DNA of 64,000 nt from Pelagicoccus enzymogenes (GTDB lineage: Bacteria; Verrucomicrobiota; Verrucomicrobiia; Opitutales; Opitutaceae): NCBI RefSeq assembly GCF_014803405.1, contig NZ_JACYFG010000061.1, forward strand, positions 248,001-312,000. The letters run 5' to 3'. The notes under the pieces were generated by a model that saw only the letters and a program-made list of their open reading frames with translations, was not told where the DNA came from and did not search any database. Positions within the stretch are counted from its first letter, which is position 1. Every line of letters starts with the position of its first letter. The position numbers and the translations under genes are program-made. Positions 44,572 through 50,153 of this stretch are shown here, in pieces.

Positions 44572-44656
44572 AGTCCGGGCACTTGCTTCGATTTTGAAAA
44601 GCTAACGAACTTGATCACTTCGCGCAAGAAAGGGAAGCATTTGCTTGATAAGCCTC

Positions 44657-44768
44657 CGCTTCGTCGAACCCGATGGGTCCTCGCCCCACCGGCGTTCCCC
44701 GGAATCACGGGTCTGACGCTCGCCAATCGCAAGCCACTCTTCCAAAGGATGTGGTACCCAGGGTGGGA
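44657..44768. repeat. 112-bp direct repeat, copy 1 (partial tRNA-Leu tail)
   Basis: It matches 44825-44936 with two mismatches over 112 bases. The right end contains the 3' part of the tRNA-Leu gene including CCA, but not the rest of the tRNA. Between the copies lie 56 bases of unrelated sequence. The 348 bases between nadA and the tRNA hold nothing else recognisable. Confidence 0.85.
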
Positions 44769-44824
44769 TTGACTCGCTGCGCTCGGAGCTTCGCCCCAAA
44801 CCTACGGTTTGCCCATCTCCGCTT

Positions 44825-44936
44825 CGCTTCGTCGAACCCGATGGGTTCTCGCCCCACCGGCGTTCCCCGGAATCACGGGTCTGACGCTCGCCAATCGCAA
44901 GCCGCTCTTCCAAAGGATGTGGTACCCAGGGTGGGA
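44825..44936. repeat. 112-bp direct repeat, copy 2 (overlaps tRNA-Leu 3' end)
   Basis: The second copy overlaps the last 17 bases of the intact tRNA-Leu gene (44920-44936) and the 95 bases downstream of it. Copy 1 therefore looks like the leftover of a duplicated tRNA-Leu unit, or a site produced by recombination at the tRNA end. Confidence 0.85.
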
Positions 44937-45004
44937 CTCGAACCCACACTTCCGGAGAAAGCGGATTTTGAATCCGCCGCGTCTACCAATTCCGCCACCT
45001 GGGC
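44920..45004 (-). tRNA. trnL: tRNA-Leu (CAA anticodon)
   Basis: An 85-base class II tRNA on the minus strand. Acceptor GCCCAGG pairs with CCTGGGT (one G-U), the anticodon loop TTCAAAA gives CAA, a long variable arm follows, and the T arm has GGTTCGAGTCCC. A 3' CCA is encoded at 44920-44922. Its 3' end lies inside a direct repeat. Confidence 0.96.
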
Positions 45005-45194
45005 ATCCTTTGAGTGCGTCGCGTAAGCCGATGCGGCTTAAAAACGAAGACCGGTGTTTTGCCATGAGCGCGACGCGATGCAAGCCTAATTCAAATCGAA
45101 GCGCATCGCATTTCGATTTTGCTAGAAAAACAGACAACGAGGGGGCTTGAGAGAAATAAAAAAGAAACCTTATCCCCCTATCCAACAGGAGATT

Positions 45195-46894: not shown

Positions 46895-48472
46895 CTACCA
46901 AGTCATCAAGCCGCCAGCAAAAGTGAATCCGGCGCCGACCGAGCAGAAGATGATCTTGTCGCCTTCTTCGAAAATCTCTTCCTCGGCAGCCCAGCCCAAA
47001 GCCATGGAAACAGACGCAGCCGAGGTGTTGCCGTACTTGTTGATAGTCACGACAAATTTCTCGTAAGGGATGCCCACTCGCTTGCTCACGGCTCTCAGAA
47101 TACGGGCGTTGGCTTGGTGCGGCACAATCCAAGAAACGTCATCCGGCTTCAGCCCGTGCCTCTCGAGCGCGCTCTCGATGATGTTCGAGAAGGCCAGAAC
47201 GGCACGCTTGAAAACGACTCCTCCATCCATCTTCAGATAAAAGGAATCCAGGTCCTCGCCCGGCGAGGGCATCGGCTTGAGGGCGCCACCACCGGTGCGT
47301 GAAATCGCGTCGGTGAAACGGGCGTCACCGCTGAGCTCCAAACGATGCAGGCGGTGCCCACCTTCGCCCTTGGTCAGAATGGCCGCTCCCGCGCCGTCAC
47401 CGAAGAGGAATGCCGTCTCGTGGTCCTTAGGGTTGGTGATTCGCGAAAGGATTTCCGCCGTCACCACCAAAATGTTTTTCGCGGTACCGCCGTAGATCAG
47501 GCTGCGCCCCACCTCCAAAGCGTAGAGCCAACCGGAACAGGCCGCATTCAAGTCAAACGCCAAGGCGGACTCCACGCCTAGTTCCCTGGCAAGAATGCTG
47601 GCTGCGCCCGGCACCGGGTGGTCCGGCAAGAGCGTAGCCACCACCACAGCGTCAATGTCCGAAACCTCCAAGCCGGCCATCTTCAGGGCATGACGAGTCG
47701 CCTTGCTCGCAAGGCTGGTCGCCGACTCGCCTTCGGAAATAACGTACCGTTGCTGGATGCCAGTAACCTTGACGATTTCCTCTTCGGTCTTGCCTGGGAA
47801 CTGCTTCAGGATTTCCGCGTTGGATCGCATGTTTTGCGGCACCGCATATCCGATGCCGGCGACGCAAGCGGTTTGAGTGGAGCCATCTCCAACCGCGACG
47901 GCCGCAGCTTGCGAAACCGTGGCCTTGGCGGGGACATAGGCTTCCAGATCGTCTCCCGTCACGCGTCCTCCCGGTCCCGTACCTACGATGTCGGTCATGG
48001 ACTCTGGATCGAAGCCTCGCTCCAAGGCCAACTTCTTGGCCCGCGGCGTCCAGCGAATGCCGTTCGCCTTGGCGAGCGGTGCGGTAGTCACCGGAGCAAC
48101 AAGCGGAGCGGAAGCGACTTCCTGCATCACCGGAGCAGCGGGCGGCGCCTCAGGCTTCGCCTCTTTCACTGCCGAAGTCGCTTGAGGCGCTGCATCCGCA
48201 TCCACCGTGAGGTGGGCTACGGACGTATCCTCCGTTTCAATACGAACGAAGGGCGCGCCAACTTCGAGGATATCCCCCGCACGGCAATGGATCTGCCGTA
48301 CCACCCCGTCGCACGGAGCTTCGAAGTCGAAGACCGACTTGTCGCTCTCCAACTCTGCTATCTTCTCGCCCTTTGCGATTTCCTGACCTGCTTCGACTTC
48401 GAGGTCGATCAAGGTCATTTCGTTGACAGTAGCCCCCATGGAAGGGATCGGCACGTCGATGAGAAAGCTCAT
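46895..48472 (-). CDS. Lipoyl domain / E3-binding domain / KASIII (FabH-like) fusion
   Basis: A 525-residue protein with an unusual order of domains. Residues 1-85 form a lipoyl domain with the lipoylation lysine Lys45 in ELESDKSVFDF. An Ala/Pro-rich linker leads to a peripheral-subunit-binding domain at about 140-180 (RWTPRAKKLALERGF; DIVGTGPGGRVTGDDLEAYV). After a second linker, residues from about 200 to 525 are a full 3-oxoacyl-ACP synthase III: Cys312 in DLNAACSGWLYAL, His452 in VPHQANARIL and Asn482 in NKYGNTSAASV form the catalytic triad. Normal E2 proteins carry a CoA acyltransferase after the binding domain; here a condensing enzyme takes that place. It may take acyl groups from a lipoyl arm to prime fatty-acid synthesis. 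pyrG is 49 bases upstream; no E1 or E3 genes are in the window. Confidence 0.92.
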   Translation of the reverse strand: MSFLIDVPIPSMGATVNEMTLIDLEVEAGQEIAKGEKIAELESDKSVFDFEAPCDGVVRQIHCRAGDILEVGAPFVRIETEDTSVAHLTVDADAAPQATSAVKEAKPEAPPAAPVMQEVASAPLVAPVTTAPLAKANGIRWTPRAKKLALERGFDPESMTDIVGTGPGGRVTGDDLEAYVPAKATVSQAAAVAVGDGSTQTACVAGIGYAVPQNMRSNAEILKQFPGKTEEEIVKVTGIQQRYVISEGESATSLASKATRHALKMAGLEVSDIDAVVVATLLPDHPVPGAASILARELGVESALAFDLNAACSGWLYALEVGRSLIYGGTAKNILVVTAEILSRITNPKDHETAFLFGDGAGAAILTKGEGGHRLHRLELSGDARFTDAISRTGGGALKPMPSPGEDLDSFYLKMDGGVVFKRAVLAFSNIIESALERHGLKPDDVSWIVPHQANARILRAVSKRVGIPYEKFVVTINKYGNTSAASVSMALGWAAEEEIFEEGDKIIFCSVGAGFTFAGGLMTW

Positions 48473-48521
48473 TGGCTTCAGTACTAGGGTTTAGTGGTAA
48501 TCAGTTGCAGACTGGACCCGC

Positions 48522-50153
48522 TTAGCGATTTTCGTGGCGGTTGATGGCCGCTTCCACGAAGGCCTGGAAAAGCGGGTGGGCCTTGTTTGGCTTGGAAAGG
48601 AATTCCGGATGCGATTGTACCGCGAGGAACCAAGGGTGTTCCTTCAACTCGACCATTTCCACGAGATTGCGCTTCGGGTTCACGCCGCTGACCACCAACC
48701 CCGCCTTTTCGAGATCCTCGACAAAAGCGTTGTTCACTTCGTAGCGATGGCGGTGACGTTCACGAATGATCTCCTGGCCGTAGGCGGCGAAGGCATGCGT
48801 GCCTTTCTTGACCTTGCACTCGTAGGAGCCAAGACGCATGGAACCGCCCTTGTCGACGACTTGCTTCTGCTCTTCCATCAAGGTGATGACCGGATGCTCG
48901 GTCTTCTCGTCGAATTCGAGGCTATTGGCCGACTTCAAGCCGAGCACGTTGCGGGCGTACTCGATAACCGCAATCTGCAGACCAAGACAGAGGCCGAAGT
49001 AAGGAACGTTGTTCTCGCGAGCGTAACGGACCGCAGCGATCTTTCCCTCGGTACCACGGTCGCCAAAGCCACCGGGAACCAAGATGCCATGCAAACTCTT
49101 GAGCGTTTCCAAGCCTTCGGGAGTTTCCAGCGACTCCGCGTCGATGCGCTTGATGTTAACCGCGCAGTCGTTGGCGATGCCCGCGTGGGTAATCGACTCG
49201 TAGACCGACTTGTAGGCGTCCTGCAATTCGATGTACTTTCCGACCACCCCGATGGTGACGCGCTTGGAAGGCGACTTGATACGGCGCACGATATCGGTCC
49301 ATATGCTTTCCTTAGGCTGCGGAGCGTCGAGCTTGAGGAAGTCCACAACCAAATCGTCGAGATGCTCGCGACGGAGCATTACAGGAAGTTCATAGATCGA
49401 ATCGTCCACGTCGATCTCCTCGATAACGGCCTTTACCGGCACGTTGCAGAAAAGGCTCATCTTTTCCCGAAGCTCTCCATCTATCGGATGTTCGGTACGG
49501 CAAACCAGGATATCCGGCTGGATACCGATCTCACGCATCTTGGCCACGCTCTGCTGCGTCGGCTTGGTCTTGAGCTCGCCTGCAGCCGCCAGGAACGGCA
49601 AGAGCGTGCAGTGGATGAAGAGAACGTTGTCGCGACCCGCCTCCAAAGCGAACTGGCGCATGGCTTCCAAGAACGGCAAGCCTTCAATATCGCCAACGGT
49701 GCCACCGATTTCCGTGATGAGAATGTCCACGTCCTCGCTGGCCGCTTGGATGCGAGCCTTGATCTCGTTGGTCACGTGCGGGATGACCTGGACCGTCTTT
49801 CCTAGATACTCACCCCGACGCTCCTTTTGGATGACGGACTCGTAGATTTGTCCCGAAGTCAGGTTGTTGAACTGGCTCAGCTTACCGGAAGTGAAGCGCT
49901 CGTAGTGGCCAAGATCGAGGTCGGTCTCCGCGCCGTCGTCCAGGACGTACACCTCGCCATGCTGGAACGGGTTCATGGTCCCCGGATCCACATTCAAATA
50001 CGGGTCGAATTTCTGGATACGCACCGTGCAGCCACGCTCCTCGAGCAACGCTCCGAGAGAGGCTGCCGTCAAGCCCTTGCCTAGGGACGAGACTACGCCG
50101 CCCGTCACGAAAATATACTTCTTTGCCTTACTGTTTTCCACTTTGGCTGCCAT
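48522..50153 (-). CDS. pyrG: CTP synthase
   Basis: A 543-residue two-domain enzyme that makes CTP from UTP, ATP and glutamine. Seen: the synthetase P-loop region ([20 protein letters not shown]), [33 protein letters not shown], and a C-terminal glutamine amidotransferase with the nucleophile cysteine in [12 protein letters not shown] and the His-Glu pair in [11 protein letters not shown]. Length and motifs are standard. It is the first of two minus-strand genes with the lipoyl-KASIII fusion 49 bases downstream. Confidence 0.97.

Follow-up and report, generated by a model that had tools for sequence, protein, structure and literature searches.

What would a condensing enzyme do at the end of a lipoyl arm? 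The question is raised by a gene in the 64 000-nucleotide stretch of Pelagicoccus enzymogenes DNA analysed here (contig NZ_JACYFG010000061.1, positions 248 001–312 000; hereafter the window), the product of which begins as a dihydrolipoyl acyltransferase (E2) of a 2-oxo acid dehydrogenase complex and ends as a β-ketoacyl-acyl carrier protein (ACP) synthase III (KASIII, FabH type). The original prediction, made from the letters of the window, was that the acyl group could pass from the arm straight to the condensing enzyme. The evidence presented below moderately favours such a reading, in which the dehydrogenase component E1 would load the lipoyl arm and KASIII, replacing E2, would use the acyl group for condensation with malonyl-ACP, bypassing free acyl-coenzyme A (acyl-CoA). 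The hand-over is supported as a hypothesis, not as proof, by an E1 of the same genome with no E2 nearby, by E1 genes upstream of related genes in other phyla, by the loss of CoA contacts and by four draft genomes in which no E2 was detected.

The gene is a single open reading frame (ORF) with an ATG start, the features of which are collected in Table 1. The traits previously read from its sequence have each been recovered by other means: an E2-like N-terminus with Lys45, a linker and a subunit-binding domain, on which Pfam, NCBIfam and alignment agree; a complete KASIII with Cys312, His452 and Asn482; an absent acyltransferase, the place of which is occupied by KASIII; and flexible linkers. 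The matches to Biotin_lipoyl, E3_binding, ACP_syn_III (residues 306–381, E = 2.1e-26) and ACP_syn_III_C (residues 436–525, E = 2.2e-30) all lie above the curated Pfam cut-offs, and NCBIfam E2 models match inside residues 4–200 (among the best 25 of 46 families). NF006829 (β-ketoacyl-ACP synthase 3) spans the KASIII part with 320.4 bits against a cut-off of 249, and TIGR00747 (fabH) falls narrowly under its own cut-off (286 against 292.1 bits). In Pfam (E ≤ 0.01) the E2 catalytic domain PF00198 has no match in the 525-residue protein, and an ordinary E2 is ruled out by this lack of an acyltransferase domain. A biotin carboxyl carrier is ruled out by the motif at the lysine, which is SDKS or mostly SAKS, the biotinyl-lysine motif of such carriers being Met-Lys-Met. 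In the AlphaFold2 model (mean predicted local distance difference test score, pLDDT, of 85.7; predicted template-modelling score, pTM, of 0.76) the lipoyl, E3-binding and thiolase-fold parts are confident, and pLDDT values under 50 at residues 100–136 and 185–195 mark disordered linkers between these ordered domains. Foldseek aligned the KASIII part with FabH-type structures at target-normalized template-modelling scores of 0.93–0.95 in the first 18 rows.

Table 1. Features of the fusion gene, in window coordinates
Feature	Position	Strand	Evidence
Lipoyl–E3-binding–KASIII fusion gene, 525 aa	46895..48472	-	Pfam, NCBIfam, alignment, AlphaFold2 model
Lipoyl domain, residues 6–78	48239..48457	-	Pfam PF00364, E 1.3e-14; high-confidence model
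Lys45 in ESDKS, predicted lipoylation site	48338..48340	-	Lys conserved in lipoyl domains
Disordered linker, residues 100–136	48065..48175	-	pLDDT < 50
E3-binding (peripheral subunit-binding) domain, residues 142–177	47942..48049	-	Pfam PF02817, E 4.3e-9
KASIII (FabH-type) domain, residues 200–525	46898..47875	-	NF006829, E 1.1e-95; Foldseek to FabH structures
Cys312, KASIII nucleophile (E. coli Cys112)	47537..47539	-	Alignments
His452 (E. coli His244)	47117..47119	-	Alignments
Asn482 (E. coli Asn274)	47027..47029	-	Alignments
Residues 232–236, EIVKV, at the position of the E. coli FabH Trp32–Arg36 CoA contacts	47765..47779	-	Alignments; excerpt of PMC4606726

The three-domain order is not peculiar to this genome. 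In a family sample of 120 genomes, 85 were positive (a match to the 525-residue protein at E ≤ 1e-100) and the order expected in other Opitutae was recovered, with a single match, uninterrupted by stops, that begins no later than residue 4 and reaches residue 525 in 50 of the 85 positive genomes, among them 5/5 of the genus; the fusion is also present in the separately sequenced named records L001, L002 and L003. In a draw of 288 genomes across the phylum, matches with E < 1e-140 were restricted to 15 of the 25 family genomes, and none was found in the 263 others (best E of 2.6e-73). A second, more distant full-length fusion copy with 62% identity occurs in one family genome (G344:C66:12449-13978). 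The named relatives bear the titles Pelagicoccus, Opitutaceae, Opitutae or simply Verrucomicrobia, except for two titled Akkermansia muciniphila (L016 and L020). The fusions of these two are of Opitutae type and cluster with Opitutaceae in the tree, and the titles may be wrong.

The relatives also include separate genes. Among 71 KASIII sequences classed by ORF (the window, L001–L050 and L161–L180; 66 distinct, some sharing one genome), a single ORF spans the fusion in 32 and the remaining 39 are non-fused. In 36 of the latter, a frame encoding the lipoyl and E3-binding domains (155–216 residues as the longest ORF) lies upstream of KASIII as an adjoining gene, separated by at most 276 bases or overlapping (longest KASIII ORFs); in L024 the two parts are in frame with one stop between them. 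Two of the loci without such a frame, L047 and L171, sit at contig edges, and the third, L040, is taken up below. In an unrooted KASIII tree, 37 rows, all non-fused, form a single clade (support 100/99) nested among the fused rows; the non-fused sequences outside it are L171, which is cut by the contig end, and L050, which was too short and was left out of the tree. Splitting therefore looks derived, and because the split genes remain an adjacent pair and form one clade within the fused forms, they support the link between the lipoyl protein and KASIII. Separate genes in relatives, which had been named beforehand as the sign of an assembly error, thus do occur, but the conclusion of such an error is not borne out. 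An alignment of 42 proteins, comprising the window protein, 29 of the 31 other fused Opitutae forms and 12 of 13 homologues from outside Opitutae (without L022 and L036 of the fused group and L058 of the outside group), shows no variation at Lys45, Cys312, His452 or Asn482. Cys54 (48311–48313, in the motif EAPC right after the lipoyl hairpin) is likewise invariant in these 42 proteins and is often alanine in the split forms.

The KASIII domain retains its catalytic residues, but has lost two contacts to CoA. In FabH the CoA adenine is sandwiched by Trp32 and Arg151 and makes a bond with Thr28, while Arg36 holds the phosphopantetheine (excerpt of PMC4606726). The corresponding positions were counted, in E. 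coli FabH numbering, in 84 rows of lipoyl-associated KASIII (71 from Opitutae and 13 from elsewhere), which are related and partly duplicate (79 distinct) and represent one or two origins, not independent events. Trp32 is lost in all 84, being replaced by Glu in 70 and Gln in one of the 71 Opitutae rows and by Tyr in 13/13 of the others, and Arg36 is replaced by Leu, Val or Ile throughout. On the other hand, both residues are kept in 17/17 plain FabH sequences of other phyla and in 17/17 sampled FabH paralogues. The paralogue control consists of eight family sequences (from 7 of 14 other positive genomes, plus L097, the FabH of the P. enzymogenes genome itself, which keeps all of the CoA contacts) and of the best-scoring other KASIII from 9 of the 13 non-Opitutae genomes (G386 has none; G389, G390 and G395 were not taken). 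Wherever a row extends to Cys112, His244, Asn274 or Arg249, the residue is conserved (L050 is truncated). At the position of Arg151, His is found in 68 of the 71 Opitutae rows. At the position of Phe87, Val is found in 71/71 Opitutae rows and Met in 13/13 others, Met being common in ordinary FabH too; a residue smaller or more flexible than Phe at this point may make room for a bulkier acyl group. In the titles of Protein Data Bank (PDB) entries, mutants W42A,R161A (2aj9) and R46A,R161A (2ahb) of another FabH are listed, and W42, R46 and R161 are presumably the equivalents of the E. coli CoA-contact residues.

A candidate partner is present in the P. enzymogenes genome (completeness 95.9%). 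Two E2 catalytic domains were detected, which lie on contig C35 beside E1 genes resembling those of pyruvate dehydrogenase (PDH) and 2-oxoglutarate dehydrogenase (OGDH). There are three strong E1_dh matches, namely these two E1s and a 683-residue α–β fusion (G000:C2:202881-204929), which lies on a contig other than that of the lipoyl–KASIII gene and has no E2 match within 5 kb on either side; the search for an E1 without a matching E2, suggested with the original prediction, thus had a positive outcome. Three weaker E1_dh matches, with E values between 2e-8 and 1e-3 and with two of them above the cut-off, possibly represent thiamine enzymes of another kind. The best PDB matches of the 683-residue E1 are the β subunit of a '2-oxo acid dehydrogenase' (1um9) and 2-oxoisovalerate E1s, followed closely by pyruvate E1, and NCBIfam models stay below their cut-offs; since the 2-oxoisovalerate and pyruvate matches are so close together, the sequence does not settle the substrate. 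The genome also contains lipA.

In other phyla the corresponding genes stand side by side. A locus scan kept the best 80 of 563 loci: 50 of Opitutae type, 13 lipoyl–KASIII loci of other phyla (Planctomycetota, Fibrobacterota and Sumerlaeota) and 17 with plain FabH. Ten of the 13 non-Opitutae lipoyl–KASIII ORFs are 435–448 residues long (longest ORF); those of L057, L058 and L063 are longer, the extra length in L057 and L063 probably resulting from a false early start. In a Pfam scan of seven of the 13, a lipoyl domain and KASIII were found in all seven and an E3-binding domain in none, so that the predicted E3-binding part holds for the window protein and not for these homologues. An α–β fused E1 lies directly upstream, on the same strand, in all 12 of these loci that include upstream DNA. 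Indeed, a tblastn search with the 683-residue E1 against the 80 loci returned these 12 matches only (L051–L053, L055–L059, L061, L063, L065 and L071; 37–42% identity) and none in the 17 plain FabH loci, although three of the latter (L067, L068 and L070) have less than 2 kb upstream. The thirteenth locus, L054, begins at a contig end, and its E1 was found on another contig of the genome. The longest ORFs of E1 and lipoyl–KASIII overlap by 1–8 bases in L051, L053, L056, L059, L061 and L065, and are spaced by 8 bases in L055 and by 97–163 bases in L052, L058 and L071. BLAST with both E2s of P. enzymogenes found no match in the 12 E1-bearing loci. At the genome level, E1_dh was found in all 13 and E2 in nine; 12 have a further KASIII, and in eight lipA exceeds its cut-off. 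E2 was not detected in four drafts (G386, G390, G391 and G392), in which E1 is present. The lipoyl domains of the Opitutae and non-Opitutae forms share a median identity of 34–36.5%, against 25–28% between either group and the lipoyl domains of the one PDH and one OGDH E2 of P. enzymogenes.

Within the family, E1 accompanies the protein in 82 of 85 genomes, the three without it being 68–87% complete, and in 28 of the 35 genomes without the protein (Fisher p = 0.0065, uncorrected for kinship and thus suggestive). Three or more E2s occur in 9/82 genomes with both the protein and E1, compared with 16/28 of those with E1 only (p = 2.7e-6, again suggestive for want of a kinship correction), which fits the hybrid replacing an E2.

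Taken together, these observations suggest that the protein would combine an E2 with a condensing enzyme in one hybrid. The dedicated α–β fused E1 would use thiamine diphosphate to decarboxylate a 2-oxo acid, with reductive acylation of the lipoyl group predicted on Lys45; the arm would then swing to the fused KASIII, where Cys312 would accept the acyl group from S-acyl-dihydrolipoyl instead of acyl-CoA, and condensation with malonyl-ACP would yield 3-oxoacyl-ACP. E3 (dihydrolipoyl dehydrogenase), docked on the E3-binding domain, would reoxidize the arm, for a putative net reaction of 2-oxo acid + malonyl-ACP + NAD+ → 3-oxoacyl-ACP + 2 CO2 + NADH, with no free acyl-CoA. The likely products, given the room that the residues at the Phe87 position may leave for the acyl group, are starters of branched (iso/anteiso) fatty acids.

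A number of observations weigh against this mechanism. E1 was matched by tblastn in none of the 50 Opitutae loci and sits elsewhere in the genome, and L040 encodes a KASIII with no lipoyl match in its 17 kb locus. E1 persists in most protein-less family genomes and 12 of the 28 E1-only genomes hold two or fewer E2s, so that E1 may also serve ordinary E2s; the nine protein-bearing genomes mentioned above have three or more E2s. In eight genomes (L218–L225, picked for having an E2 listed near E1; three with the protein and five without), E1 lies 6–10 kb from sucA–sucB, sucB being that of the OGDH operon. An E3-like motif stands beside sucB in seven of the eight, and unlike in these genomes the E1 fusion and the OGDH genes of P. 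enzymogenes are on different contigs. Of the four drafts without a detected E2, only G391 has lipA over the cut-off and G390 is just below it; G386 and G392, where no lipA match reaches the cut-off either, may thus be incomplete. As regards the CoA contacts, the kinship of the 84 rows has been mentioned, and the paralogues were chosen as listed or best-scoring, which favours ordinary FabH. Two further KASIII-like genes of P. enzymogenes show similar losses: in L099, Trp32 is kept and Arg36 replaced by His, and in L100 both residues are missing, so that the loss sets the group apart from ordinary FabH and not from all KASIII. Arg151 is kept in 6/13 non-Opitutae forms and in 4/9 of their paralogues and, the paralogues being mixed too, is uninformative in that group. 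The loss of contacts would also fit acyl-ACP or another donor, and the evidence for the mechanism is genomic throughout. As a separate observation, L099 and L100 (contigs C37 and C6) lie beside NAD-epimerase-like and hydrolase-like ORFs, surroundings reminiscent of olefin (ole) genes.

The alternative that survives best is that the lipoyl and E3-binding parts serve for docking only, tethering a CoA-dependent KASIII to a dehydrogenase complex, where it would use the acyl-CoA made on the spot by a normal E2. E3-binding domains can bind E1 or E3, the genome encodes two normal E2s, E1 lies in the sucA–sucB neighbourhood in the eight picked genomes, and the 12 E1-only genomes with two or fewer E2s suggest that E1 may share an E2. 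However, a CoA-dependent enzyme sits poorly with the loss, in 84/84 rows, of the contacts to the adenine (Trp32) and to the phosphopantetheine (Arg36); the lysine equivalent to Lys45, needless for docking, is present in 32/32 fused, 36/36 split and 13/13 non-Opitutae lipoyl domains (81/81); the E1 gene adjoins in other phyla although the seven forms scanned there have no E3-binding domain to dock with; and 4 of the 13 non-Opitutae genomes have no detected E2. Docking alone is thus unlikely, and less likely than a direct hand-over.

Somewhat less probable still is a lipoyl-fed KASIII that makes a 3-oxoacyl unit for another product, for example a specialized lipid or a polyketide. The presence of an ordinary FabH (L097) with a full set of CoA contacts would leave room for such a role, as would the position of the gene beside pyrG with no fab genes among the surrounding listed ORFs, but the equivalent of E. 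coli Arg249 is kept in every covering row. Branched fatty acids are also major in Lacunisphaera (Opitutaceae), in which iso-C15:0 leads in two of three species and the third has iso-C14:0, anteiso-C15:0 and iso-C16:0 (excerpt of PMC5303756); since iso-C14:0 is major in Coraliomargarita too (excerpt of PMC10288369), these profiles do not discriminate.

That the KASIII takes its acyl group from ACP or another donor, the lipoyl arm having a redox or regulatory role, appears quite improbable. The loss of CoA contacts names no donor by itself and is shared by L099 and L100, and L040, of the same clade, lacks a lipoyl gene in its locus; nevertheless, this explanation does not account for the E1 directly upstream in 12/12 non-Opitutae loci. 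Finally, an error of assembly or gene prediction that joined two genes, which could appeal to the separate genes of related genomes, can be dismissed as already refuted by the unbroken frames in 50 of the 85 positive genomes, in 5/5 of the genus and in L001, L002 and L003.

In the window, 49 bases separate the fusion gene from pyrG, which precedes it on the same strand (46895–50153). Likewise, a pyrG match precedes the gene in the same orientation in 33 of 50 Opitutae loci (contig ends truncate some of the 50), and the position beside pyrG is therefore regarded as old. Elsewhere in the window, at 44602–45026, a stretch of about 100 bases is seemingly repeated, with similar words in overlapping ORFs.

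The preferred mechanism, of direct transfer from the lipoyl arm, extends to a broader proposal, for which the prospects appear slightly better than even: a new class of complexes in which a ketosynthase stands in for the E2 acyltransferase and the C–C bond that it forms primes (branched) fatty acids without acyl-CoA, in Verrucomicrobiota, Planctomycetota, Fibrobacterota and Sumerlaeota. With the same slight leaning, the class would comprise an Opitutaceae type, fused or encoded by an adjacent pair, and an E1/lipoyl–KASIII gene pair in the other phyla. According to the textbook, free acyl-CoA is what connects the oxidation of keto acids with the priming of fatty acids; if the proposal is true, bacteria of several phyla bypass CoA and keep the acyl group covalently bound on its way from the dehydrogenase to the condensing enzyme. 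This would add a new reaction cycle for lipoyl arms, explain E1 genes without an E2 of their own, and point to a way in which little-studied phyla make branched membrane lipids, besides offering a compact module for branched fatty acids.

No such protein or route is named in the open-access literature searched, a scope that left aside subscription papers and preprints, and the papers found to deal with both lipoyl and FabH describe, in the excerpts available, ordinary PDH or Bkd routes (PMC8204192, PMC6461809). Conditional on biochemistry, the proposed system is new in kind, since the combination fails both the definition of an E2, for lack of an acyltransferase, and the CoA contacts that are a feature of ordinary FabH; its parts belong to known families. 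With E2 it shares the order of lipoyl domain, flexible linker and E3-binding domain and, in the loci of other phyla, an adjoining E1 partner gene, and differs in having a condensing enzyme in the place of the acyltransferase catalytic domain. With KASIII/FabH it shares the fold, the Cys-His-Asn triad and Arg249, and differs in its additional N-terminal lipoyl arm and in the absence of the Trp32 and Arg36 contacts. Lipoyl–E3-binding proteins without a catalytic domain are known as the E3-binding protein or protein X type; the split form likewise has a stand-alone ORF of this kind, but encoded directly upstream of a KASIII gene. In the canonical branched starter route, the Bkd complex makes branched acyl-CoA that is used by FabH, as described for Bacillus (excerpt of PMC6461809) and for Chlamydia (excerpt of PMC6167442). 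There, as in the system proposed here, a keto-acid dehydrogenase primes KASIII; the hand-over is by free acyl-CoA in the canonical route, whereas here it would be covalent, on the lipoyl arm.

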